Assembly: GCA_029256485.1 (NCBI GenBank)
Contig: JAQSXU010000091.1
Span: 1 to 38,926, forward strand
Length of the DNA: 38,926 nucleotides
Direction of reading: 5' to 3'
DNA from: Clostridiaceae bacterium
GTDB taxonomy: Bacteria > Bacillota_A > Clostridia > Clostridiales > Clostridiaceae
Both the position numbers and the translations under genes were made by a program. Below the pieces are notes generated by a model, which was not told the origin of the DNA, searched no databases, and saw only the letters and a list, made by a program, of their open reading frames with translations. This document shows positions 2,218-37,620 of the stretch, piece by piece (the first letter of the stretch is position 1; each line of letters opens with the position of its first letter).

Positions 2218-2973
2218 TCATTTATTACGTATCCAATTTGTTTCTATTATAGTTAATTCAGTACCATTATCACTCTCTATTTTATGATTGCATAAAATAT
2301 TTCCATCTTCCTTATCTATAACCTGCGCAATTGACTTTACAGTATCTCCATATGTTGTTTCTTTTTCATAAGTTACTATTATATTGTTTAATGAATAGTT
2401 CAGTACTATGTTCTTTGGTACAGTTTCCAATGCCCATGCAACATAATTAACATTATTTACATGTTTATTTGTATCAATGTCGCTATATCTCACATTAAAT
2501 ATCTTTTCATATTGAGTTTGTTCTGGAGCCTTAATTTTCTTTACTTTTACATCTACATTATCATCCTTTGAAATACCATATGCCAAATACATATCATCTG
2601 AAATTCTAAGAGGTTTTCTTTTTTCAATATCAATTAAAAACCAAACAGAATCAGCAGTTATAATTAAATTCTCATATGAATCATATACTTCATATTTTCT
2701 GTAAGCATAAAACTTATTAAATGAATTTGGAATAGTTTTTATTGTAATTATTTCTCCAAGCAGTGGATACCTTTTTATATTTATGCTCCATTTGTATAAT
2801 ACCCATGTTTTCTTATGTTCTGTCATATAATCAATACCCACATTAAAATCTTCACTTTGATGATTTCCCAAATCCCCAAAAAAACTCATTAAGCTTGTAA
2901 GTAAAAGTTTCTTCTTATAATCAATTTCATAATAATGTATCTCATATTCCTTAGTGGTTGCTTTACCGCTCAT
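2218..2973 (-). CDS. Acyl-ACP thioesterase (FatA/FatB-type)
   Basis: This 251-residue soluble enzyme should hydrolyse acyl-ACP to free fatty acid and ACP in the cytoplasm. It has the tandem hot-dog architecture of bacterial acyl-ACP thioesterases. The second domain carries DTNKHVNNVNYVAWALE (about 167-183), matching the D-x-N-x-H catalytic pattern of the plant FatA/FatB enzymes. The N-terminal half has the expected YEIDYKKKLLLTSLMSFFGD and WFLID segments. Length is normal for the bacterial family. The ATG follows GGGGGATGAT. It appears to be a single-gene unit, and its promoter would lie in the AT-rich gap after the DUF1858 gene. Chain-length preference cannot be read from the sequence. Confidence 0.88.
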   Translation of the reverse strand: MSGKATTKEYEIHYYEIDYKKKLLLTSLMSFFGDLGNHQSEDFNVGIDYMTEHKKTWVLYKWSINIKRYPLLGEIITIKTIPNSFNKFYAYRKYEVYDSYENLIITADSVWFLIDIEKRKPLRISDDMYLAYGISKDDNVDVKVKKIKAPEQTQYEKIFNVRYSDIDTNKHVNNVNYVAWALETVPKNIVLNYSLNNIIVTYEKETTYGDTVKSIAQVIDKEDGNILCNHKIESDNGTELTIIETNWIRNK

Positions 2974-3065
2974 TTTATCATCCCCCTAAATTAACATATA
3001 GTAATATAATACCAAATATACTAAGTAATCTAAATTAAATTAGAATTTGTTTACAAAAAAATAAT

Positions 3066-7607: not shown

Positions 7608-7612
7608 ATAAT

Positions 7613-7649
7613 ATAACCAAACCTCAATATATCAATAAGGTTTGGTTAT
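7613..7649. terminator. Bidirectional terminator between lepB and the histidine kinase
   Basis: A 12-bp perfect stem (ATAACCAAACCT / AGGTTTGGTTAT) with a 13-base loop lies between two converging genes, six bases after each stop codon. Flanking sequence is T-rich on the minus strand. Confidence 0.75.
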
Positions 7650-7655
7650 GAGAAA

Positions 7656-9032
7656 TTAAATCGTAGGTTTATTAAAATAAATTGTAAATATAGTTCCTTT
7701 TCCAAATTCACTTTCCACATCAATGGATGCAGAGTGCATTATTAATATCTTTTTTACAATGGTTAACCCTATTCCATTTCCTTCCACCTCATGTCTGCTT
7801 TTATCACCTCTATAAAGTCTTTCAAAAACATAGGGTATATCATTCTTTTTGATACCAACTCCATTATCCTTTACCTTAACTATAATTTTATCCTTACTTT
7901 CCTCAACGTAGACCCAAATAGTTCCTCCAGGTCTATTAAATTTCAGTGCGTTTGATATCAAATTAATAAAAACTTGTTTTAGCCTGTCTTCATCTCCTTG
8001 CATCTTATATTTTTTAGAGTGAAAATCAAGGTTAATATTTATTTCCATATCCTTTGCAGCTAACATAAAGTCATCGCATACTTCTAATATTATATCGTCT
8101 AAAAATATATCTTTTATATTTAAAATAATATCTTCAGTTTCAAATCTTTTTAATGAATTTAAATTATTCAACAGCTTTCCAAACCTTATTATCTCATCAT
8201 TTAAACTGTTTAATCTTTCTTTTGTAGTAGGTAATATACCATCTATCATAGCTTCAATGTTATTTTGAAGCACATTTAATGGTGTCCTGATCTCATGTGA
8301 TATATCTGATACCAACCGCTTTCTTAGCAAATCTTGACTTTCAAGTTTTTCCCCTAATTTATTTATGCTGTCTATTAAATTATTTATTTCTATTATATTG
8401 CTATTAACATTTGATCTAAAGCTGTAGTTTCCCCTTGAAAGCTCAACAGAAGTATCAGAAACCTTTTTTATTGGTATGGAAAATTGTGATGATATTCTTA
8501 GACTAACAATTACTATAATGAAAATTGTTATAAGAACACTAAGTGCTATTCCTATATTTATTGACTTTTTAAAGTTTATATCCTGATCAGATAAAAGTAA
8601 TGAATAATATTGCCCAATCATTACATACCCTACTGTTTTACCGTTTACATCTATATTAAAGGTTTTTGATGTGTATACTCCCTTACCTAATCCGGATGCC
8701 ATCATTGAATGCATTTGTGGATCCAGCTTTATCAAATTAGCATCCATACCCCACACAACATTTTTCCTTTGATCAAGTAAAGTTAAGCAATAGTTACTCA
8801 TATATGCCTCATGCATCATTTCTTGGCCTGAGCTCTTATTCCATCCATTATCTCTTTTATAAATTTGTTGAAAATATTCTACTATTCTATTATTTCTCTT
8901 ATTTTGTACATCAGCCATATATTTATTAAAGTTTCTTTCCATTGTAATATTCACAAACAATGCAGATAATAACACAGCTGAAACTGTACAAATTATTAAT
9001 ATCAAGCTTAATCTTCTTCTAACACTCTGCAT
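7656..9032 (-). CDS. Sensor histidine kinase (HAMP, HisKA, HATPase)
   Basis: Membrane sensor kinase of about 458 residues, partner of the response regulator just upstream. Order of parts: membrane helix 1 (about 8-28), an external sensor region (30-156), helix 2 (157-179), HAMP (180-232), HisKA with the phosphoacceptor in SDISHEIRTPLN (His246), then the ATPase domain with N box NLISNALKF, G1 DNGVGIKK, and G2 EGNGIGLTIVKK. The chosen ATG at 9032 follows the regulator's TAA by one base, and GGTGGTGAG inside the regulator's last codons is its ribosome site. A longer TTG-started reading to 9062 has no such site. The stimulus is unknown. Confidence 0.93.
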   Translation of the reverse strand: MQSVRRRLSLILIICTVSAVLLSALFVNITMERNFNKYMADVQNKRNNRIVEYFQQIYKRDNGWNKSSGQEMMHEAYMSNYCLTLLDQRKNVVWGMDANLIKLDPQMHSMMASGLGKGVYTSKTFNIDVNGKTVGYVMIGQYYSLLLSDQDINFKKSINIGIALSVLITIFIIVIVSLRISSQFSIPIKKVSDTSVELSRGNYSFRSNVNSNIIEINNLIDSINKLGEKLESQDLLRKRLVSDISHEIRTPLNVLQNNIEAMIDGILPTTKERLNSLNDEIIRFGKLLNNLNSLKRFETEDIILNIKDIFLDDIILEVCDDFMLAAKDMEININLDFHSKKYKMQGDEDRLKQVFINLISNALKFNRPGGTIWVYVEESKDKIIVKVKDNGVGIKKNDIPYVFERLYRGDKSRHEVEGNGIGLTIVKKILIMHSASIDVESEFGKGTIFTIYFNKPTI

Positions 9033-9033
9033 A

Positions 9034-9717
9034 TTAAATCTCACCACCAAATTTATAACCAACTTTAGTCACCGTTAAAATATATTTTGGTGTTCTGCTG
9101 TCTTCCTCAATTTTTTTTCTTAAATTCTTAATATGAACATCTATTGTTCTATCTGAACCATCAAAATCAATTCCGAATATTTTATCTATCAGCTGATCTC
9201 TTGTTAAAACTTTACCATAACTTGATGCAAGAACATATAGTATATCAAATTCATTAGGAGTTAAACTAATTTCTTCACCCTTTAATATTACAATTCTTTT
9301 TTCATTATCAATTTGAAGTGCTCCACTATTGAAATTTAATATATTATGACCTGAACCTCCTACTCTCCTAAATAATGCATTTACCCTAGCTGTTAATTCC
9401 CTAGGACTAAATGGTTTTGACAAATACTCATCTGCTCCTATATTTAATCCTGTAATTCTGTCATTTAAAGACACTTTAGCGGTAAGCATAAATATATAGG
9501 TTTCTGAAATTCTTCTTAGTATTTTGCATACTTCTTCTCCTTCGATATCCGGCAGCATTAAATCTAAAATAACTAGCTTAAAGTCTATTTTATTAAATAG
9601 TTCAATTCCCTCTAAACCTTTTGCTGTGCAATATACGTTATATCCTTCTTTCTCAAGATAAGCTTTTATAACCTCTGATACTCTTTCCTCGTCTTCTATA
9701 ATTAGAATATTATTCAC
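9034..9717 (-). CDS. OmpR/PhoB-family response regulator
   Basis: Cytoplasmic DNA-binding regulator of 227 residues. The receiver domain (1-120) has the acidic pair IIEDEE, phosphoacceptor Asp52 in LVILDLMLPD, the Thr in MLTAK and the Lys in YLSKPF. The C-terminal winged helix (about 125-227) has SLTPNEFDILYVLA and the recognition region DRTIDVHIKNLRKKIE. The start is GTG at 9717, five bases after AGGGGTGAT. It is translationally coupled to the kinase gene, with one base between stop and start. Upstream is a 700-base gap with a minus-strand hairpin at 9855-9884 that may affect its transcription. Confidence 0.93.
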   Translation of the reverse strand: MNNILIIEDEERVSEVIKAYLEKEGYNVYCTAKGLEGIELFNKIDFKLVILDLMLPDIEGEEVCKILRRISETYIFMLTAKVSLNDRITGLNIGADEYLSKPFSPRELTARVNALFRRVGGSGHNILNFNSGALQIDNEKRIVILKGEEISLTPNEFDILYVLASSYGKVLTRDQLIDKIFGIDFDGSDRTIDVHIKNLRKKIEEDSRTPKYILTVTKVGYKFGGEI

Positions 9718-9854
9718 AAATTATCACCCCTGTGATTCTAATTTTAAATTTATAAGGTGTATTTTTCTACTATTATTTTTATTTTCAGCTTTTTATTTTG
9801 ATTATAATTATTTATTGTGAAGATTTTATGTTGAAATTTGAAACATGTACTAAT

Positions 9855-9884
9855 AAAAAAGTGTTACTTATACAAATAACACTT
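9855..9884 (-). terminator. Minus-strand terminator upstream of the response regulator
   Basis: An 8-bp stem AAGTGTTA / TAACACTT with a 10-base loop is followed on the minus strand by TTTTATT. No minus-strand gene ends nearby: the ANTAR gene ends more than 500 bases away and has its own hairpin. It may therefore act as a second-line terminator or as an attenuator in the regulator's leader. Confidence 0.55.
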
Positions 9885-9948
9885 AAAAAGCCTTTTATTA
9901 TATTATAATTTTTTATCGCAAAAATAATTTAATTTTTAGAATATTCAG

Positions 9949-10423: not shown

Positions 10424-10993
10424 TTATTCATACTTTTCTATAATCTTAGCTGCCAGTTTATACATTGGAACACAAAAATCCATACTTTTTTTTCTTAAAT
10501 ATTTAAATGCTTCATCTTCTGAAATTTTTAACCTTTTCATGACAATACCTTTTGCTCTATCTATTACTTTTCTATTCTCTATTTCCTTTTCAAGGCTCTT
10601 AATTTTATCTTGAAGTTCCTTAACTTTTATAACATTATTTAAGCTAAATTCTATTGTTTGATATAATTGCTCTGAATTTATTGGCTTAGTTATATATGCA
10701 AAAATATTCATGTTATTCAATTGCTCATAAAATGAAGAGTCAAGTTTATTGGTAATAAATAGGACACTTGAAACTTTGTCTTCTTCTATTATTTTAGCTA
10801 CCTTAAAAGCATTAATTCCTATAAGGTTAATATCAATAATCACTAAATGTGGAAACAAGCTTCTACTTATTCTTAATACTTCTCCACCATTATGTGCCTG
10901 ATAGATCATGTATCCTCTCGCTTTTAATAGTTCACTAATGCGTTGTCTATTTTTATAGTCACTATCAGCAACTACTATTTTATAATTATCCAT
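10424..10993 (-). CDS. nitR: ANTAR-domain antitermination regulator (NitR-like)
   Basis: An RNA-binding response regulator of about 189 residues. The receiver domain (1-120) has VVADSD, phosphoacceptor Asp54 in LVIIDINLIG and Lys103 in ITKPI. A short coiled coil (about 118-135) links to the ANTAR domain (about 133-187; AKGIVMKRLKISEDEAFKYL). ANTAR proteins bind tandem hexaloop hairpins in leaders and block terminator formation, often in nitrogen genes. The chosen ATG at 10993 has GGAGTGAT just upstream; the longer frame to 11020 has no ribosome site. It is the last gene of amtB-glnK-glnA-nitR, 50 bases after glnA. A likely target is the amtB leader at 14116-14176. The symbol follows the glnA-linked clostridial homologue. 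Confidence 0.88.
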   Translation of the reverse strand: MDNYKIVVADSDYKNRQRISELLKARGYMIYQAHNGGEVLRISRSLFPHLVIIDINLIGINAFKVAKIIEEDKVSSVLFITNKLDSSFYEQLNNMNIFAYITKPINSEQLYQTIEFSLNNVIKVKELQDKIKSLEKEIENRKVIDRAKGIVMKRLKISEDEAFKYLRKKSMDFCVPMYKLAAKIIEKYE

Positions 10994-11042
10994 ATTATCA
11001 CTCCGGATGGCACAATTCATTCGACAATTAAAGGCTGTAGGT

Positions 11043-12377
11043 CTAATACTTTCTTAAATATCTATCAATTTCCCACTGAGATATATATTTAGAATACTCA
11101 TTCCATTCATAAGAAGCTGCTTCAATAAACCTTTTATATGCATGTTCACCCAAGGATGACTTTATTACCTCATCTTTAGACAGCTCTTCAAGTGCTTCAT
11201 ATAAATTAATAGGCAACCTTTCTATGCCTCTTTCTTCAGCTTCATGTTCTCCAATTTCATACATATTGCTAGTTACCTGACTAGGCGGCTCTATTTTATT
11301 TTTAATTCCATCTAAACCAGCTTTTAATGTTACTGCTAATGCCAAGTATGGATTGGCACATGGATCAGGATTTCTTAACTCAATCCTTGTACCCACTCCT
11401 CTTTCTGCTGGTATTCTAATTAACGGGCTTCTATTACTTGCAGACCAAGCTATCAGAACTGGTGCTTCATATCCCGGAACTAACCTTTTATATGAATTCA
11501 CTGTTGGATTAGTTATAGCAGTATAAGCTTTAGCATGCTTTAATAGGCCTCCTAAAAAGTTATATGCAATAGTTGAAAGACCTAAATCATTATTTCCATC
11601 ATAAAAAGCATTTTGAGAATCTAACGTTGAAAGTGACATATTAAGGTGCATTCCAGATCCATTAACACCAAATTTAGGTTTTGGCATAAAGGTAGCATGC
11701 AGTCCATGCCTTTGAGCAATAATTCTTACCACCATTTTAAATGTCATAATATTATCTGCAGTAGCCAATGCATCATCATATTCAAAGTCAATTTCATGCT
11801 GCCCGGGTGCTACTTCATGATGAGATGTTTCAATTTTAAAACCCATTTGCTTTAAAAACATTGTCATTTCGTTCCTAGCATTTCCACCTAAATCTATTGG
11901 TGCAAGATCAAAATATTCTGCATTGTCATGTGTTTCAAGAGATGGGTTACCTTTTTCATCTGTATGAAACAAAAAAAACTCACATTCTGGTCCCACCTTC
12001 ATAATATATCCCATTTGCTTTGCTTCATTCAGCATTTTTTTTAATGTATTTCTAGGGCATCCTTCAAAAAGTGTGCCATCAATATTATAAACATCACATA
12101 TTAATCGAGCTTCTTTATGAAAGTTTTCCCATGGAAACACAGTAAACGTTGATAAATCAGGTTTTAAGTACATATCAGATTCTTCAATCCTTACGAATCC
12201 ATCAATTGATGAACCGTCAAACATTATTTTACCATCCAGTGCCTTTTCTAATTGTTGAGCCGTAATTGAAACATTTTTCATTACACCCATAATATCAGTA
12301 AATTGGAGATGTATAAATTCTATATCTAGTTCTTCAACCTTCTTTAAGAGCTCTTGTTTATTAAATTCATATCTCAC
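11043..12377 (-). CDS. glnA: Glutamine synthetase, type I
   Basis: Makes glutamine from glutamate, ammonium and ATP; a dodecameric cytoplasmic enzyme. The 444-residue length matches the GSI-alpha form of low-GC Gram-positives, which is controlled by feedback rather than adenylylation. Landmarks in order: TDIMGVMKN, MFDGSSIDGF (about 52-61), GPECEFFLF, HHEVAPGQHEIDF, NGSGMHLNMS, AWSASNRSPLIRIP, and RIELRNPDPCANPYLALA. The tyrosine used for adenylylation in enteric enzymes has no counterpart. ATG start after GGAAGGGGAAGA. Located between glnK and nitR with only short gaps, so it is part of one transcription unit starting at amtB. Confidence 0.97.
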   Translation of the reverse strand: MRYEFNKQELLKKVEELDIEFIHLQFTDIMGVMKNVSITAQQLEKALDGKIMFDGSSIDGFVRIEESDMYLKPDLSTFTVFPWENFHKEARLICDVYNIDGTLFEGCPRNTLKKMLNEAKQMGYIMKVGPECEFFLFHTDEKGNPSLETHDNAEYFDLAPIDLGGNARNEMTMFLKQMGFKIETSHHEVAPGQHEIDFEYDDALATADNIMTFKMVVRIIAQRHGLHATFMPKPKFGVNGSGMHLNMSLSTLDSQNAFYDGNNDLGLSTIAYNFLGGLLKHAKAYTAITNPTVNSYKRLVPGYEAPVLIAWSASNRSPLIRIPAERGVGTRIELRNPDPCANPYLALAVTLKAGLDGIKNKIEPPSQVTSNMYEIGEHEAEERGIERLPINLYEALEELSKDEVIKSSLGEHAYKRFIEAASYEWNEYSKYISQWEIDRYLRKY

Positions 12378-12409
12378 TCTTCTTCCCCTTCCTTTAATTT
12401 AAAAGTTTA

Positions 12410-12769
12410 CTATTTATATTGTAGAGCATCTCTTCCTTCTGCCCCATTACTTATGCGTATAACATTAGCCACATCATAAATAAATATCTTTCCATCGCCC
12501 ATTTTACCCGTGTATAATACCTTCTTTGCAGTATTTACTACAGTTTCTACAGGTACTTCACAAACAACAACTTCAACCTTTATCTTTTGTAATAAATTAA
12601 TATCTACAGCCGTTCCACGATAATATTCTTTATGTCCCTTTTGTACTCCACAACCTAAAACATTAGAAACAGTCATACCTGTAATTCCAATCTCATTTAA
12701 TGCATCCTTCAAATCTTCAAATTTACTTGGAGATGCAATAATATCAATTTTAGTTATCTTTTCATTCAT
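12410..12769 (-). CDS. glnK: PII-family nitrogen regulatory protein
   Basis: A 119-residue PII protein that probably binds and gates the AmtB channel in response to 2-oxoglutarate and ATP/ADP. Seen: the N-terminal KIDIIASPSKFEDLKDAL, the T-loop region VLGCGVQKGHKEYYRG followed by TAVDINLLQKIKVEVVV, and the B-loop YTGKMGDGKIFIYDV. At the place of the uridylylated Tyr51 in enteric GlnB (AEYMVD) this protein has a Val (TAVDIN), so uridylylation there is not possible. The ATG at 12769 is preferred because the upstream GTG at 12778 is part of the GGGGTGAT ribosome site. It is placed between amtB and glnA, as in most amtB-glnK pairs. Confidence 0.93.
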   Translation of the reverse strand: MNEKITKIDIIASPSKFEDLKDALNEIGITGMTVSNVLGCGVQKGHKEYYRGTAVDINLLQKIKVEVVVCEVPVETVVNTAKKVLYTGKMGDGKIFIYDVANVIRISNGAEGRDALQYK

Positions 12770-12820
12770 ACATATCACCCCTCATGATTTTTCATAATTA
12801 TAACATATTGATACTAATTA

Positions 12821-14056
12821 TTATATATTCAAACCGCCATAAGCCTCTTCTCCATGTAAAGAAACATCTAATCCATCATGCTCTTCTTCATTACTTACCC
12901 TTATTTTAATAAACTTATTTATTAATTTTAATATTACAAATGTCATTAATACTGAAAATATAATGGTAACTAGAATAGCAATTAATTGAATACCTAAAAG
13001 TTTTGGATTACCATATAACAAACCATTTGCTCCAGCTTCATTTATAGTCTTTGTAGAAAATATTCCTGTAGCTATACCTCCCCATATTCCTCCAACTCCA
13101 TGGCAACCAAAAGCATCTAAAGAATCATCATATTTGAATTTCTGTTTAACAACTGTAACTGCAAAGAAGCATACAGCTCCACCAATAGCTCCTATTACTA
13201 GTGATGCTAAAGGGGTAACAAAACCTGCTCCTGGAGTTATAGATACAAGTCCAACCACTATACCACTAGCTATACCCAAGCTTGAAATCTTTCCTCTATG
13301 AATTAATTCACATGCGCTCCAGGATATAGCTCCTGCTGCTGCTGCTGTATTAGTAGTTATAAATGCATTTAAAGCTACTCCATTTACAGCTAGTGCACTT
13401 CCTGCATTAAATCCATACCATCCAAACAAAAGCAATCCTGCCCCTAGAAGAGTCATTGGAATGTTATGTGGAGTAATTGCATCTATTTTGTTTCTTTTTC
13501 CCAGCATTAACGCTGCAACTAATGCTGATACACCTGAACTAATATGGACCACATTGCCTCCTGCAAAATCCAATGCTCCTAGGTTTCTTATGAAACCTCC
13601 AACTCCCCACATCCAATGCGCTATTGGATCATAAACTAAAGTTGACCAAAGTAATATAAATACTGCAAATGCTAAAAAGTTCATTCTTTCTACTACCGCT
13701 CCAGATATTAAAGCAGGTGTTATTATTGCAAACATAAGTTGAAACAGTATAAACATTTGATGAGGAATAGTTGCTGCATAATCAGCATTTGGGGAAAATC
13801 CTACACCATGCAATCCTAGAAATTGAAAATTTCCTATGAATCCACCAATATCTTTACCGAAGCATAAAGTATATCCTATTAATATCCATTGTACTGATAC
13901 TATAGCAATGGCCGAATAACTCTTGGCCATTGTACTTAACACATTTTTCCTTCTAACCATTCCACCATAAAATAAAGCTAATCCAGGAGTCATTAATAAA
14001 ACTAGTACTGTTGATAAAATCATGAAAGTTGTGTCTGCTGCATTAATATTGTTCAT
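12821..14056 (-). CDS. amtB: Ammonium transporter (Amt family)
   Basis: Ammonium channel with about eleven membrane helices and 411 residues. Signature segments: LMTPGLALFYGGMVRRKN near the N-terminus, FILFQLMFAIITPALISGAVVER split around residue 105-125, DFAGGNVVHISSGVSALVAA with the pore-region His, GWYGFNAGSA, and DDSLDAFGCHGVGGIWGG with the second pore His near residue 310. ATG start after GGGGGAAGAT. First gene of the nitrogen operon. Its leader carries an intrinsic terminator with a nested hexaloop hairpin, so entry of polymerase into the operon is probably controlled by antitermination. Confidence 0.96.
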   Translation of the reverse strand: MNNINAADTTFMILSTVLVLLMTPGLALFYGGMVRRKNVLSTMAKSYSAIAIVSVQWILIGYTLCFGKDIGGFIGNFQFLGLHGVGFSPNADYAATIPHQMFILFQLMFAIITPALISGAVVERMNFLAFAVFILLWSTLVYDPIAHWMWGVGGFIRNLGALDFAGGNVVHISSGVSALVAALMLGKRNKIDAITPHNIPMTLLGAGLLLFGWYGFNAGSALAVNGVALNAFITTNTAAAAGAISWSACELIHRGKISSLGIASGIVVGLVSITPGAGFVTPLASLVIGAIGGAVCFFAVTVVKQKFKYDDSLDAFGCHGVGGIWGGIATGIFSTKTINEAGANGLLYGNPKLLGIQLIAILVTIIFSVLMTFVILKLINKFIKIRVSNEEEHDGLDVSLHGEEAYGGLNI

Positions 14057-14115
14057 TTGTATCTTCCCCCATCTTATGTAATATATTTTTTAAATATTAT
14101 AAACAGTAATATAAT

Positions 14116-14167
14116 AAAAAAAGCGTCTGAAAATATGAGAATAAAATATTCCCATTATTTCAGACGC
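14116..14167 (-). terminator. Leader terminator of the amtB operon
   Basis: On the minus strand GCGTCTGAAA (14158-14167) pairs with TTTCAGACGC (14123-14132). A further inner stem lies around ATGGGAAT / ATTCTCAT, and seven T follow (14116-14122). It stands 60 bases before the amtB start and about 180 bases after the previous gene, so it is best read as an attenuator in the amtB leader. Confidence 0.8.
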
Positions 14168-14176
14168 CATTGCCTA
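14161..14176 (-). promoter_or_regulatory. Candidate ANTAR-binding hexaloop hairpin in the amtB leader
   Basis: On the minus strand TAGGC and GTCTG can form a five-bp stem (two G-U pairs) around the hexaloop AATGGC. The loop has A in position 1 and G in position 4, the rule known for ANTAR target hairpins. Its 3' arm GTCTG is also in the 5' arm of the terminator, so the two structures exclude each other. A matching upstream first hairpin was not found with confidence. Confidence 0.5.
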
Positions 14177-14250
14177 TTCTAATATTAAATTTACTATTAT
14201 ATTAATAAAAATTCAATAGTTTTTCAAAAAAATTTAACAGCATTTAACTT

Positions 14251-14279
14251 ATTATCATAATTATAAATTCATAATTCAA
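14251..14279 (-). promoter_or_regulatory. Probable amtB operon promoter
   Basis: On the minus strand TTGAAT (14274-14279), a 17-base spacer and GATAAT (14251-14256). It gives a leader of about 190 nt containing the terminator. A second TATAAT at 14196-14201 lacks a well-spaced -35 element. Confidence 0.45.
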
Positions 14280-14292
14280 TATATAGTATTAG

Positions 14293-14325
14293 TTATCAAC
14301 ATTATCAACAATATGTTGTTGATAA
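14293..14325. repeat. Three TTATCAACA 9-mers (DnaA-box-like) in 33 bases
   Basis: TTATCAACA occurs in direct tandem at 14293-14301 and 14302-14310 and inverted at 14317-14325. Each differs from the DnaA box TTATCCACA by one base. The same bases form a hairpin just after the stop of the permease gene at 14346, so a weak terminator is the alternative. Confidence 0.5.
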
Positions 14326-14345
14326 CTATTTTCAAATAATAATAA

Positions 14346-15488
14346 CTAGATTAGCTTGAAAATGATATATAAATAACTCATAAATGAGAACATAAACAAA
14401 CTTACAAAATTATATAAGTTAAACTTATTTAAATATATTTTATTTTTTTCTTTATGTTCATTCATATATATTTTATATGAAATGAGACTTGCTAATGAAG
14501 CTATAAGAGTACCCATGCCTCCAATATTAACTCCTAAAAGGACCTCTCTCCAATTATCTGTAAATCCAGATACCAGTACGGAACAAGGAACATTGCTCAC
14601 TATCTGACTAAGTAATATAGATGAAAAATAAGGCATGTTAGGCTTTTGTAAAAAATTTCTTAAATATTCCTGTATAAACTCTATATTAGATATATTTCCA
14701 ATAAATACAAAAAAGCATATAAATGTAGCTAATAAAAAATAATCTACTTCTTTTATAAGATACTTGTCCATAAAAACTATATATAACACTGTGACCAAAA
14801 ATGTATATTTATAATCTATGAGCCCAAATACAGAAAACACTATAAGTAAAAAAAGAATAAAATATATAATAGTCCTTTTTTTATCTTTTATATGTACAGC
14901 TTCTAATGAAAGTTTTATTTCTTTCTTTAAAACTCTCTCGTTCAATAATAAAAGCCATATCATACCCAGAACAACAAAAGGCACTGTAACAGAGAAAAAC
15001 TGTAATGCGTTTAAATTGTATTGAGTGAATAAAAATAAATTTTGAGGGTTTCCCATAGGTGTTAGACTACTGCCTATATTAGCTGCTAAAGTTTGAATTA
15101 TTATTGTTTTCATAGAGTCAACCTTTGCCTTTTTAAAAGTAAATATAGATAAAGGAACAAAAGTAAGAAGTGCTACATCATTTGTTATAAGCATAGAAGT
15201 AAAAAAAGTTACTATTACAAATACCAAAGAAACCATTCTGGTATTTTTACACTTTGATAAAATTTCTAAAGCAATCTTATCCATAACTTTTAAATTTTCA
15301 AAAGCAGCAATTATTATCATTAAATTAAAAAGCAGTACTAGAACTTTGAAGTTTATATACGATATTTGTGGTTTTATAAAAAAGCAAGTAGAAATTGCTA
15401 ATAATAAAGATATACTAAACACTTTCTCATTTTTCAGTTTTTCCTTAATAAAATATATCTTATTAATATTGAAAGTTACGCTATTCAT
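14346..15488 (-). CDS. ArsB/NhaD-type anion permease
   Basis: A 380-residue integral membrane protein with about ten hydrophobic segments, of the ArsB/NhaD (ion transporter) superfamily. The two inverted-repeat signatures are visible: ITNDVALLTFVPLS followed by GSSLTPMGNPQNLFLF (about 100-155), and SNVPCSVLVSG followed by GVNIGGMGTLIASLASLISY (about 300-345). Substrate cannot be assigned: arsenite, dicarboxylates, sodium/proton and phosphate are all possible in this superfamily. AGGAGGT lies seven bases before the ATG. An out-of-frame ATG four bases earlier opens a three-codon decoy frame. It is a single gene between the tRNA and amtB. Confidence 0.85.
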   Translation of the reverse strand: MNSVTFNINKIYFIKEKLKNEKVFSISLLLAISTCFFIKPQISYINFKVLVLLFNLMIIIAAFENLKVMDKIALEILSKCKNTRMVSLVFVIVTFFTSMLITNDVALLTFVPLSIFTFKKAKVDSMKTIIIQTLAANIGSSLTPMGNPQNLFLFTQYNLNALQFFSVTVPFVVLGMIWLLLLNERVLKKEIKLSLEAVHIKDKKRTIIYFILFLLIVFSVFGLIDYKYTFLVTVLYIVFMDKYLIKEVDYFLLATFICFFVFIGNISNIEFIQEYLRNFLQKPNMPYFSSILLSQIVSNVPCSVLVSGFTDNWREVLLGVNIGGMGTLIASLASLISYKIYMNEHKEKNKIYLNKFNLYNFVSLFMFSFMSYLYIIFKLI

Positions 15489-15668
15489 TCATTTTACCTC
15501 CTTTGAAAAACAATTTTTGAAAAATATTATATATATTTAAGATCTCTTTATCGGATTCATGAATTTAAACTAATTCCAAAAATTATTTTAATCAATCATT
15601 ATTTACAAATTTACAGAAGTTTATTTTTACATTTCACTTTGCATCTCATTTCCTGTGAAATTATAAAA

Positions 15669-15700
15669 TATAAAGAGTTGTATTTCTACAACTCTTTATA
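15669..15700. terminator. Terminator of tRNA-Thr
   Basis: A 14-bp perfect stem (TATAAAGAGTTGTA / TACAACTCTTTATA) with loop TTTC starts five bases after the tRNA 3' end on the minus strand and is followed by TTTTATAATTT. Confidence 0.85.
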
Positions 15701-15705
15701 TTTTC

Positions 15706-15781
15706 TGGTGCTCCCGGCAGGATTCGAACCTGTGGCCTACTGATTACGAATCAGTTGCGCTACCAGCTGCGCTACGGGAGC
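15706..15781 (-). tRNA. tRNA-Thr (anticodon CGU)
   Basis: A 76-nt tRNA on the minus strand with encoded CCA. The acceptor arms GCTCCCG / CGGGAGC pair fully. The D arm carries AGCTGGTAGC, the anticodon stem is ACTGA / TCAGT around loop TTCGTAA (anticodon CGT, reading ACG), and the T arm has GTTCGAATC. It has its own promoter and terminator and is not in an rRNA or tRNA cluster. Confidence 0.95.
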
Positions 15782-15796
15782 ATACATAATAATTAC

Positions 15797-15825
15797 ATTC
15801 TATTACAATATAAAATTTTTATCAA
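15797..15825 (-). promoter_or_regulatory. Promoter of tRNA-Thr
   Basis: On the minus strand TTGATA (15820-15825), a 17-base spacer and TAGAAT (15797-15802), about 15 bases before the mature tRNA 5' end. Confidence 0.75.
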
Positions 15826-15963
15826 TATATATAACTTAATTTTGTGAAATAATAAAAATCCTCTTTATTTCCAGTTTATTATTAAATAAATTGTTTAAAA
15901 TAATTTATAGTATAGTATCATATTTTATCTTTATTTTTCTTCTAATATCTTCTATTATTAGAC

Positions 15964-15980
15964 TTTGACTTTCTTTGACT
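15964..15980 (+). promoter_or_regulatory. CtsR-type heat-shock operator upstream of hsp18
   Basis: TTTGACTTTCTTTGACT is a tandem heptad with a three-base spacer. It matches the CtsR consensus read from the opposite strand (GGTCAAA repeats, first base A or G). The second TTGACT can serve as a -35 box with TGTAAT at 15999-16004, so repressor bound here would block the promoter. Confidence 0.75.
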
Positions 15981-16071
15981 ATTATATTATTATATAACTG
16001 TAATAAAGATAAAGCAAAACTTAAATAGTCTTTATCAAAATAAAATATATAATTTATGGGAGGTTATATAT

Positions 16072-16524
16072 ATGTTTGATTTGGTTCCTTTTAGGAGAAA
16101 TAACAATTCATTATCAAGAAAAGGTGATTATTTCGATGAGTTTATGAATAACTTTTTTGGCGATGATTTTTTAGCTTCAGTAGATTTTATGGGTATGAGT
16201 AATGGTTTTAGGGTAGATTTAAAAGAAAATGAAAATTCTTATATGGTTGAAGCTGATTTACCTGGGGTAAATAAAGATTCAATAAATGTTGAATATAAGA
16301 ATAATTATTTGGCAATTAGCACAAAACGTGAAGATAATTTCGAAGATAAAAAAGATAATTATCTTAGACGTGAGCGAAGATACGGAGAATTTAAGAGATG
16401 TTTTTATATAGACAATGTTGATGAAGAAAAAATAGAAGCATCATTTAAGGATGGAGTATTAAAAATCAATTTGCCAAAATCTCAGTCAGGTGTCATAAAA
16501 TCTAGAAAAATAAATATTCAATAA
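16072..16524 (+). CDS. hsp18: Small heat shock protein, Hsp20 family
   Basis: A 150-residue ATP-independent holdase of the alpha-crystallin family. The variable N-terminal arm (1-44, FDLVPFRRNNN and DEFMNNFFGDDFL) precedes the alpha-crystallin domain (about 46-138), with FRVDLKENENSYMVEADLPG and ASFKDGVLKINLPK. The C-terminal I-x-I motif is in KINIQ. Length and termini match clostridial Hsp18. TGGGAGG precedes the ATG. It is the only gene of its unit, with a CtsR-type operator over its promoter and a strong terminator shared with dnaB. Confidence 0.95.
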   Translation: MFDLVPFRRNNNSLSRKGDYFDEFMNNFFGDDFLASVDFMGMSNGFRVDLKENENSYMVEADLPGVNKDSINVEYKNNYLAISTKREDNFEDKKDNYLRRERRYGEFKRCFYIDNVDEEKIEASFKDGVLKINLPKSQSGVIKSRKINIQ

Positions 16525-23917: not shown

Positions 23918-24175
23918 TTATTCTGTTGTAAATGGAAGCAATGCTATATTTCTTGCTCTCTTTACTGCTTCAGTAAGCATTCTCTGATGTTTTGCGCAAT
24001 TTCCAGAAATTCTTCTTGGAAGAATCTTGCCTCTTTCAGTGACATACTTTCTGATTTTGTTTATATCCTTGTAATCTATAGCTTCAGCTTTATCTATGCA
24101 GAATGAACAAACTTTTTTCTTTGCTCTTCTCATTCTTGCTGAACCTTTTTTATTATTTCTTTCTTCCCTAGCCAT
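23918..24175 (-). CDS. rpsR: 30S ribosomal protein S18
   Basis: Small-subunit protein that forms a heterodimer with S6 on 16S rRNA; 85 residues. After a basic N-terminal tail comes [18 protein letters not shown], then [20 protein letters not shown] and [15 protein letters not shown]. Four cysteines in a C-x2-C ... C arrangement suggest the C+ (zinc-capable) form. It has its own ATG and ribosome site 20 bases after ssb. Confidence 0.96.
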
Positions 24176-24195: not shown

Positions 24196-24645
24196 TTAAA
24201 ATGGTATATCTCCATCATCTACAGGGGTTATATCTTCTCCGCCCATATCTTTAGAAAATCCACCTTGTTGACTTCCATAATTAGAATTACTTCTACTATA
24301 ATCTTGATCCATGCCTTTGTTTCCATTTCCCCATTCAAGGAATTGTACCTCTTCAGCAACTATTTCAGTGACATATCTTTTAGAACCATCTTTAGCGTCA
24401 TAACTTCTAGTCTGAATTCTACCGCTTACACCCATAAGCTTTCCTTTGCTCATGTAATTTGCTGTAGATTCAGCCTGCTTTCCCCATACTACTATGGGAA
24501 TGAAGTCCGCTTCTCTGGTGCCGTCTTTAGAAGGCATTCTTCTATCGACTGCTAATGTTAAGGTGGTAACAGCTGTTCCCGAACCTGGAGTAAACTTCAG
24601 CTCTGGGTCTTTAGTTAATCTTCCAATTAAAACAACTTTATTCAA
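24196..24645 (-). CDS. ssb: Single-stranded DNA-binding protein
   Basis: Tetrameric ssDNA-binding protein, 149 residues. The OB fold (1-105) begins [16 protein letters not shown] and includes [12 protein letters not shown] and [14 protein letters not shown] Gly/Ser/Asn/Gln-rich linker (110-136) leads to the acidic partner-binding tip DGDIPF. The start is TTG at 24645 after AGGTGGTG. That ribosome site contains the ancestral stop codon of rpsF, which shows how tightly the genes were packed. Confidence 0.96.
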
Positions 24646-24686
24646 TTAAAACACCACCTATTTTTCATTTTTTATTATAATATGTC

Positions 24687-24875
24687 TTATAACTGAATCT
24701 GTCCTTCATTTACTTTGTTAATTTCATAAGCAAGCTTTCTCTTACCCCATGAATCAACATTTTCAATTACTCCGCCACCATTTTCTATTACACCCTTAAA
24801 CTTTTCAACGCCAGCTTTAACAGCTTCTTCGTCTAATGATGGATGTAGTATAAATATAGTTTCATATTTTCTCAT
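24687..24875 (-). CDS. rpsF: 30S ribosomal protein S6, truncated by an internal deletion
   Basis: The frame gives 62 residues, from MRKYETIFILHPSLDEEAV to KVNEGQIQL, whereas S6 is normally about 95. The first 58 residues align with S6 throughout. Right after KVNEG the frame is lost, but the expected S6 C-terminus DSVIRHIIIKNEK plus stop is present in another frame at 24658-24699. The missing part is the third strand region and second helix, about 24 codons, and the loss is not a multiple of three. The protein should not fold or pair with S18 normally. The ATG at 24875 is six bases after AGGAGGTG; a GTG at 24884 is inside that site. Either a real lesion or a sequence or assembly error. Confidence 0.9.
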   Translation of the reverse strand: MRKYETIFILHPSLDEEAVKAGVEKFKGVIENGGGVIENVDSWGKRKLAYEINKVNEGQIQL

Positions 24876-24892
24876 TAGATTCACCTCCTCCC

Positions 24893-24934
24893 TATGGACT
24901 AACGGCTGTGAGTTATATTCACAGCAGGGCCATA
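24893..24934 (-). promoter_or_regulatory. S6:S18-type leader motif of rpsF-ssb-rpsR
   Basis: On the minus strand TATGG / CCATA forms an outer stem and CTGTGA / TCACAG an inner stem. The trinucleotide CCG (24903-24905 on the plus strand) lies unpaired just 3' of the inner stem. This is the arrangement by which S6:S18 binds its own mRNA, mimicking 16S helix 22. It lies 18 bases before the rpsF start. Confidence 0.7.
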
Positions 24935-24941
24935 CTAATTT

Positions 24942-36297: not shown

Positions 36298-36315
36298 AGT
36301 GACATACCTACTTTC

Positions 36316-37620
36316 CTAAACAAAATTTCGAAAAAATTTTATCAATAATATTTTCCTCCAAGGTATCACCAGTAATTTCCCCAAGAGAGCACTCATACAA
36401 TTTTCTCTCGCCTTAATTATAGCTTCTTTATGTCTGGCATTAGTAATTAAAATATCCTTTGACTCTATTTTACCATTAAAAAATAAATCTTTAATACTTT
36501 GTTTTAAATTATCTATTCCTTCTCCAGAAAATGCTGATGTCCTAATTATATTTTCACTTTGAAAACCGATAATTTCATCTAAATTTAATTTTTGTTTCAA
36601 GTCTTTTTTATTTAATATAATTATGCTTTTCTTATCACTTATATAATTTATAATTTCTTTATCTTCTTCATCAATTTCTCTACTTAAATCAAGCATAAGT
36701 ATTATTAAATCAGCCTCATTTATTTTTTCTATAGATTTTTCTACTCCTATTTTTTCAACTACATCATTAGATTTTCTTATTCCAGCCGTATCAACAATTT
36801 TAATAGGTATACCATCAATACTAATAAATTCTTCAATTACATCTCTAGTGGTTCCAGGAATATCAGTTACAATAGCTCTATTCTCCATTAATAGAGCATT
36901 TAATAAAGATGATTTACCCACATTAGGCTTTCCTACTATTACAGTATTCAATCCATCTCTAATAATCTTACCCTGTTCTGCATTTTTCAATATATTTTCT
37001 AGTATGTCTATTATTTGTTTTAATTTAATACTTACATTATCAGATGTTGCCTGCTCTAAATCCTCTTCTGGATAATCTACAGTAGCTTCAATATGTGCTA
37101 TTACTTCTAATAACTTTTCTCTAAGATTTATTACTTCCTTAGAAACCTTTCCCTGAGACTGCATTACAGCAGATTTCATGGAAAGATCTGTTTTTGCTCT
37201 AATTATATCAATTACTGCTTCAGCCTCACTCAAATCTATTCTTCCGTTTAAAAATGCTCTTTTAGTAAATTCTCCAGGCTCAGCTATCCTGGCTCCTGAC
37301 TTAATAACTTCCATTAATATCTTATTAGTTGCAGTAACACCACCATGACAATTAATTTCTACAACATCTTCTGCTGTAAAACTTTTTGGCCCCTTCATAT
37401 ATGAAACAATAACTTCATCTAATATTTCATTTGTTTCTCTTTCAATTATATATCCATATCTCATGGTATATGTTTTAATACTATCTAACTCTCTATTATT
37501 TTTACTCTTAAAAATATGACTTACAATTTTCAATGCGTTGCTACCAGAAACTCTTACAATAGCAATACCACCTTCACCTAAACTAGTTGATATAGCTGCA
37601 ATTGTATCAAATTCCTTCAT
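36316..37620 (-). CDS. mnmE: tRNA modification GTPase MnmE, C-terminus lost by internal deletion
   Basis: MnmE works with MnmG on tRNA U34. The first part is normal: formyl-THF-binding domain (about 1-120), helical domain, and G domain with [28 protein letters not shown] and NKKD. After [14 protein letters not shown] [10 protein letters not shown] (about residue 413) the frame continues into [10 protein letters not shown] and stops, giving 434 residues. The proper tail LGEITGD ... KFCLGK, including the catalytic Cys of the conserved C-terminal motif, is readable in another frame at 36308-36385. About 22-24 codons are missing and the loss is not a multiple of three. The encoded protein should lack catalytic function. 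It may be a real lesion or an assembly error. Confidence 0.92.

Follow-up and report, generated by a model that had tools for sequence, protein, structure and literature searches.

Out-of-frame deletions in rpsF and mnmE on a Clostridiaceae contig are probably sequencing or assembly artefacts

Introduction

The complex of ribosomal proteins S6 and S18 binds a leader RNA upstream of rpsF, of the kind described below, and represses the gene; in Escherichia coli, repression of rpsF is seen only when S6 and S18 are both overexpressed (PMC4647458 and PMC10931766). The gene is listed among 79 core genes in a study of the Mollicutes, which also reports that, among the species studied, MnmE and MnmG have been lost only in M. 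suis (PMC4014445). Whether S6 is dispensable is not stated in the sections of PMC10931766 and PMC4014445 considered here.

The ordinary Clostridiaceae locus is an rpsF-ssb-rpsR operon preceded by an S6:S18 leader, and the locus described here is like it in gene order, in the leader hairpin and in the CC motif. Of S6 it retains the first 58 residues and the C-terminal end, and it differs from an ordinary Clostridiaceae rpsF by an internal gap of 70 nt. The locus lies in the stretch of 38,926 nt analyzed in this work (here called the window), which comes probably from a metagenome. A preliminary description made from the sequence of the window had interpreted the gap as an out-of-frame deletion, either a biological lesion or, equally plausibly, an error, and had proposed a comparison with rpsF of close relatives. 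Here we report that comparison, a second lesion of similar size in mnmE, and the reasons for regarding both as probable artefacts.

Results

The features of the window on which the analysis turns are as follows, all on the minus strand.

24658..24875, minus strand: rpsF (bS6) with an out-of-frame internal deletion, from the ATG to the original stop (ORF, Pfam and alignment with the closest genome, G190)
24687..24875, minus strand: rpsF frame that is still open, with 58 native and 4 foreign codons before a stop (ORF, Pfam and G190 alignment)
24701..24702, minus strand: rpsF deletion junction (placed to within 1 nt), 70 nt absent relative to G190
24658..24702, minus strand: remnant encoding the S6 C terminus in another frame, DNA identical to that of G190
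24196..24645, minus strand: ssb, intact (Pfam and comparison with G190)
23918..24175, minus strand: rpsR (bS18), intact (Pfam and comparison with G190)
24880..24940, minus strand, approximate span: intact rpsF leader, comprising a hairpin, a CCG motif and a CCCT opposite the ribosome-site AGGG
36308..37620, minus strand: mnmE with a second out-of-frame deletion (comparison with G190 and profile search)
36385..36386, minus strand: mnmE deletion junction, 67 nt absent relative to G190

The rpsF lesion. The rpsF frame starts at an ATG at 24875 and runs for 62 codons to a stop at 24687-24689. As the preliminary description had reported, it is true to S6 for 58 residues and then adds four foreign residues before the stop, and the Pfam Ribosomal_S6 match (PF01250) is confined to profile positions 1 to 57 of 90, so that the product would lack the second half of the domain. 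The true C terminus of S6 does survive in another frame, ending in a TAG (24660-24658) that overlaps the ssb ribosome site, again as described. The distance from ATG to TAG is 218 nt, compared with 288 nt for a 95-codon gene, and alignment with G190 likewise places an absence of 70 nt between plus-strand positions 24701 and 24702; both measurements bear out the earlier figure of 70 lost bases. The accompanying estimate of about 24 codons was roughly right in size, the exact loss being 23 codons and one base. Because the blocks flanking the gap share 90% and 85% identity with G190, and because S6 in relatives is uniformly 94 to 96 amino acids long (see below), the gap is not a product of chance. 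The window has the operon context expected of a functional bS6, rpsF-ssb-rpsR, and lacks a full-length S6 domain in a single frame.

Comparison with the closest genome. Among 206 genomes of the C. magnum family, G190 is the closest to the window that was found: the neighboring DUF2232 protein is 84% identical, and the next best genome reaches about 51%. At the DNA level, the window and G190 are 85 to 90% identical over five aligned blocks of more than 900 nt, and G190 has the same gene order with a single, intact S6 of 95 amino acids at the same place. In four aligned stretches we counted 32 indels between the two, after dropping three alignment-end gaps and leaving larger differences between stretches uncounted. 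Five of these fall inside genes, with gene spans chosen by hand and any indel lying 2 nt or less from a gene end treated as external. Three of the five are in frame (3, 3 and 15 nt), and two are out of frame, namely the 70 nt in rpsF and 67 nt in mnmE. Indels of 1 or 2 nt were not found inside genes in the aligned blocks; an artefact here would thus not be ordinary raw long-read noise, which counts against that reading. An ORF-by-ORF comparison with G190 (43 ORFs after nested ones were dropped, 37 of them with a match in the window) revealed one more internal stop, located where the ORF at 2347-3024 is extended upstream, and an antisense ORF over mscS that is split in two. Several other ORFs are short of N-terminal residues only, which we attribute to the choice of start. 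In the window, about 10 kb (mainly 1-2344, 7610-9919, 10429-14241 and 14361-15698) have no counterpart in the compared stretch of G190. Among ten proteins in or overlapping this part, assessed by Pfam only, nine have family domains with no obvious break; the protein at 182-766 has no Pfam match.

A second lesion in mnmE and an intact twin. The mnmE lesion lies 11.7 kb from that in rpsF. The ORF at 36316-37620 encodes 434 amino acids, with a C-terminal remnant in another frame at 36311-36388; relative to the 459-amino-acid MnmE of G190, the window reads through to residue 412 and resumes at residue 434 in the other frame. In line with this, the NCBIfam MnmE profile (TIGR00450) is matched only as far as position 395 of 446. 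When the window MnmE was used as the query, a protein search recovered the window's own 434-amino-acid protein (P0197), assigned to a contig of 38,926 nt, which identifies the window as one whole contig. It also recovered a JGI protein (P0198) from a contig of 14,268 nt that is an intact MnmE of 459 amino acids. P0198 shares with the window MnmE all 412 residues that precede the break and 25 of the 26 in the remnant; the single mismatch is at the junction codon. Among the best 120 of 7998 MnmE proteins, only that of the window has 434 amino acids, and the other 119 have 457 to 468. If P0198 belongs to the same organism, an intact protein identical over 412 residues implies that not all of its members carry the mnmE lesion. 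As far as these sequences go, an organism indistinguishable from that of the window in MnmE appears to have an intact gene, and P0198 could represent another strain. By arithmetic only, the P0198 contig, if it shared the right end of the window, would stop near 24726, inside rpsF.

The rpsF leader. A hairpin followed by a C pair was present upstream of rpsF in 69 of 69 leaders (that of the window and 68 from relatives, extra gene copies included) under a lenient rule applied without a shuffle control, namely 5 of 6 pairs with G-U allowed and CC after the stem. The motif reads CCG in 59 of the 69, and the stem occurs in 13 variants, some of them changed on both sides. An Rfam search of the leader gave nothing at the gathering score, the best match scoring 13.6 bits against the 50 required. 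If S6 were truly lost, repression through the leader would be expected to fail. The disturbed autoregulatory loop put forward in the preliminary description finds no independent support, and the leader RNA is intact.

S6 in relatives. Loci of relatives were fetched via ssb (the best 80 of 111, two genomes contributing two loci each). S6 matches were found in 61 of the 80, and in all 61 the protein is 94 to 96 amino acids long; the comparison proposed earlier thus found S6 to be intact in G190 and of normal length wherever it occurred. At the threshold applied, the remaining 19 loci gave no S6 match, and most of them have ssb without the other operon genes. In the C. magnum family as a whole, S6 is present in 200 of 206 genomes, with E values of 3.3e-31 or lower in 199. 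The only weak match is in G183, in which the halves of the gene lie on two contig ends, and no internal stops were seen among the S6 match rows listed. Six genomes have no S6. Four of these (G050, G077, G080 and G100) also have no S18 match, one (G061) has a trace of S6 in the first bases (2-61) of a contig, and one (G103) has only a partial S18 match. These circumstances point to assembly gaps rather than loss of S6.

Two or three complete copies of rpsF are found in 4 of the 206 genomes (G001, G005, G007 and G017), all in the C. magnum genus, which has seven genomes here; G037 and G044 have second S6 matches below the cut-off. Several copies make loss of one conceivable in that clade, but G190 has only one. 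The extra loci in these four genomes (L009, L012, L088, L089 and L090) each carry the leader, and C. magnum itself has three rpsF copies in all. At L009 and L012, ssb and rpsR are also present, together with none of the other old neighbors searched for. A plasmid search returned 23 records, all at 60 to 80% identity; among the 20 listed, the annotated ones concern mainly ssb or rpsR. Among the best 120 of 993 protein matches there was neither an intact S6 identical to the 58 residues of the window nor the truncated S6 of the window itself, a negative that is uninformative because the database is clustered at 90% and can hide an identical entry.

Selection and junctions. In comparison with G190, the 58 native rpsF codons give a dN/dS of 0.033 (a rough value, resting on 7 synonymous changes and 1 nonsynonymous change), and codons 1 to 412 of mnmE give 0.086. 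Both fall inside the range of 18 neighboring genes (0.008 to 0.142). By this measure, and by the identity of the rpsF remnant to the DNA of G190, we found no decay in rpsF or mnmE beyond the deletions themselves. The genes accordingly do not look like pseudogenes: there is no added decay or relaxed selection, and the lesions are not common to near relatives. Either the loss of bases is very recent or it exists only in the data. Replication slippage is expected to involve longer direct repeats. Slippage between direct repeats was rejected as the origin of the gaps, the homology at both junctions being about 1 nt as judged by eye against G190, in what is a weak test because the bases of G190 stand in for those lost from the window.

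Discussion

We consider it likely that both deletions, in rpsF and in mnmE, are artefacts of sequencing or assembly. This reading is favored because two frame-breaking deletions of similar size strike conserved translation genes, no other lesion was seen, and MnmE has an intact twin; we infer that the rpsF gap is of the same origin as the mnmE gap. On this interpretation, the window would be a whole contig of a Clostridium relative in which the assembly passes over about 70 nt of the real sequence at two places, whether in sequencing, library preparation or assembly. The living organism would have an intact S6 of 95 amino acids that partners S18 normally and would repress its own operon through the leader RNA. 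That an error might be responsible was a sound caveat in the preliminary description, but the mnmE lesion and the intact MnmE elsewhere tip what was presented as parity toward an artefact. Local deletion artefacts are a general notion for assembled contigs, and the window resembles them in its isolated frame-breaking deletions without decay and in that another contig carries, for mnmE though not for rpsF, an unbroken allele.

A rare real variant keeps some weight because the searches turned up no intact rpsF from the window's own organism. Deletions that arose recently in one strain or subpopulation, with S6 lost, S18 left without its partner, repression through the leader gone and MnmE inactivated, would agree with the otherwise clean state of the compared sequence, since decay need not show yet after a recent event, and E. 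coli tolerates the loss of either S6 or MnmE. They would, however, require two null mutations of nearly equal size in translation genes within 12 kb and no other lesion, and an organism that matches the window in 412 residues of MnmE carries that gene unbroken. Nor does the family offer a precedent, the one weak match among the 200 genomes with S6 being a gene split by contig ends and the genomes without S6 suggesting assembly gaps instead. We therefore regard real deletions as unlikely, and it is improbable that there is a natural Clostridium population with a strain that lacks both S6 and MnmE through clean deletions of about 70 nt and carries a leader without its repressor. Such a strain, if real, would be a natural S6-less bacterium, showing how S18 and operon autoregulation fare without S6.

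A real loss might instead be buffered by a second rpsF-ssb-rpsR operon elsewhere while the copy at the old locus decays, and the multiple complete rpsF genes in four of the seven C. magnum-genus genomes, two of the extra loci (L009 and L012) with ssb and rpsR, give this idea some basis. We nonetheless judge it very improbable: the closest genome has a single copy, ssb and rpsR beside the broken rpsF are intact, and mnmE would be left unexplained. A programmed -1 frameshift that fused the two frames to give a shorter but functional S6 would account for a C-terminal frame that is open to the ssb ribosome site. This mechanism is scarcely credible and was rejected, because 23 residues would still be missing; moreover, a short S6 occurs at none of the 61 S6-holding loci of relatives, inspection by eye found no slippery run at the junction, and mnmE shows the same pattern.

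Taken as artefacts, the two gaps caution that an otherwise clean contig can contain frame-breaking gaps, tens of bases long, that mimic loss of core genes, and a gene-by-gene comparison of the contig with a sister genome is what reveals them. Truncated S6 entries in public data include two, P0057 (65 amino acids) and P0082 (76 amino acids), that like the window combine a normal N-terminal S6 with a foreign tail; their break points differ from that of the window rpsF, and the tail of P0082 resembles what we take to be a translated sequencing adapter. Between rpsR and the next gene, where the window has no additional DNA, G190 carries a 417-amino-acid ORF (L097, 15009-16262), and Clostridium sp. 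OS1-26 has about 5 kb of extra sequence (L034, about 10739-16107).
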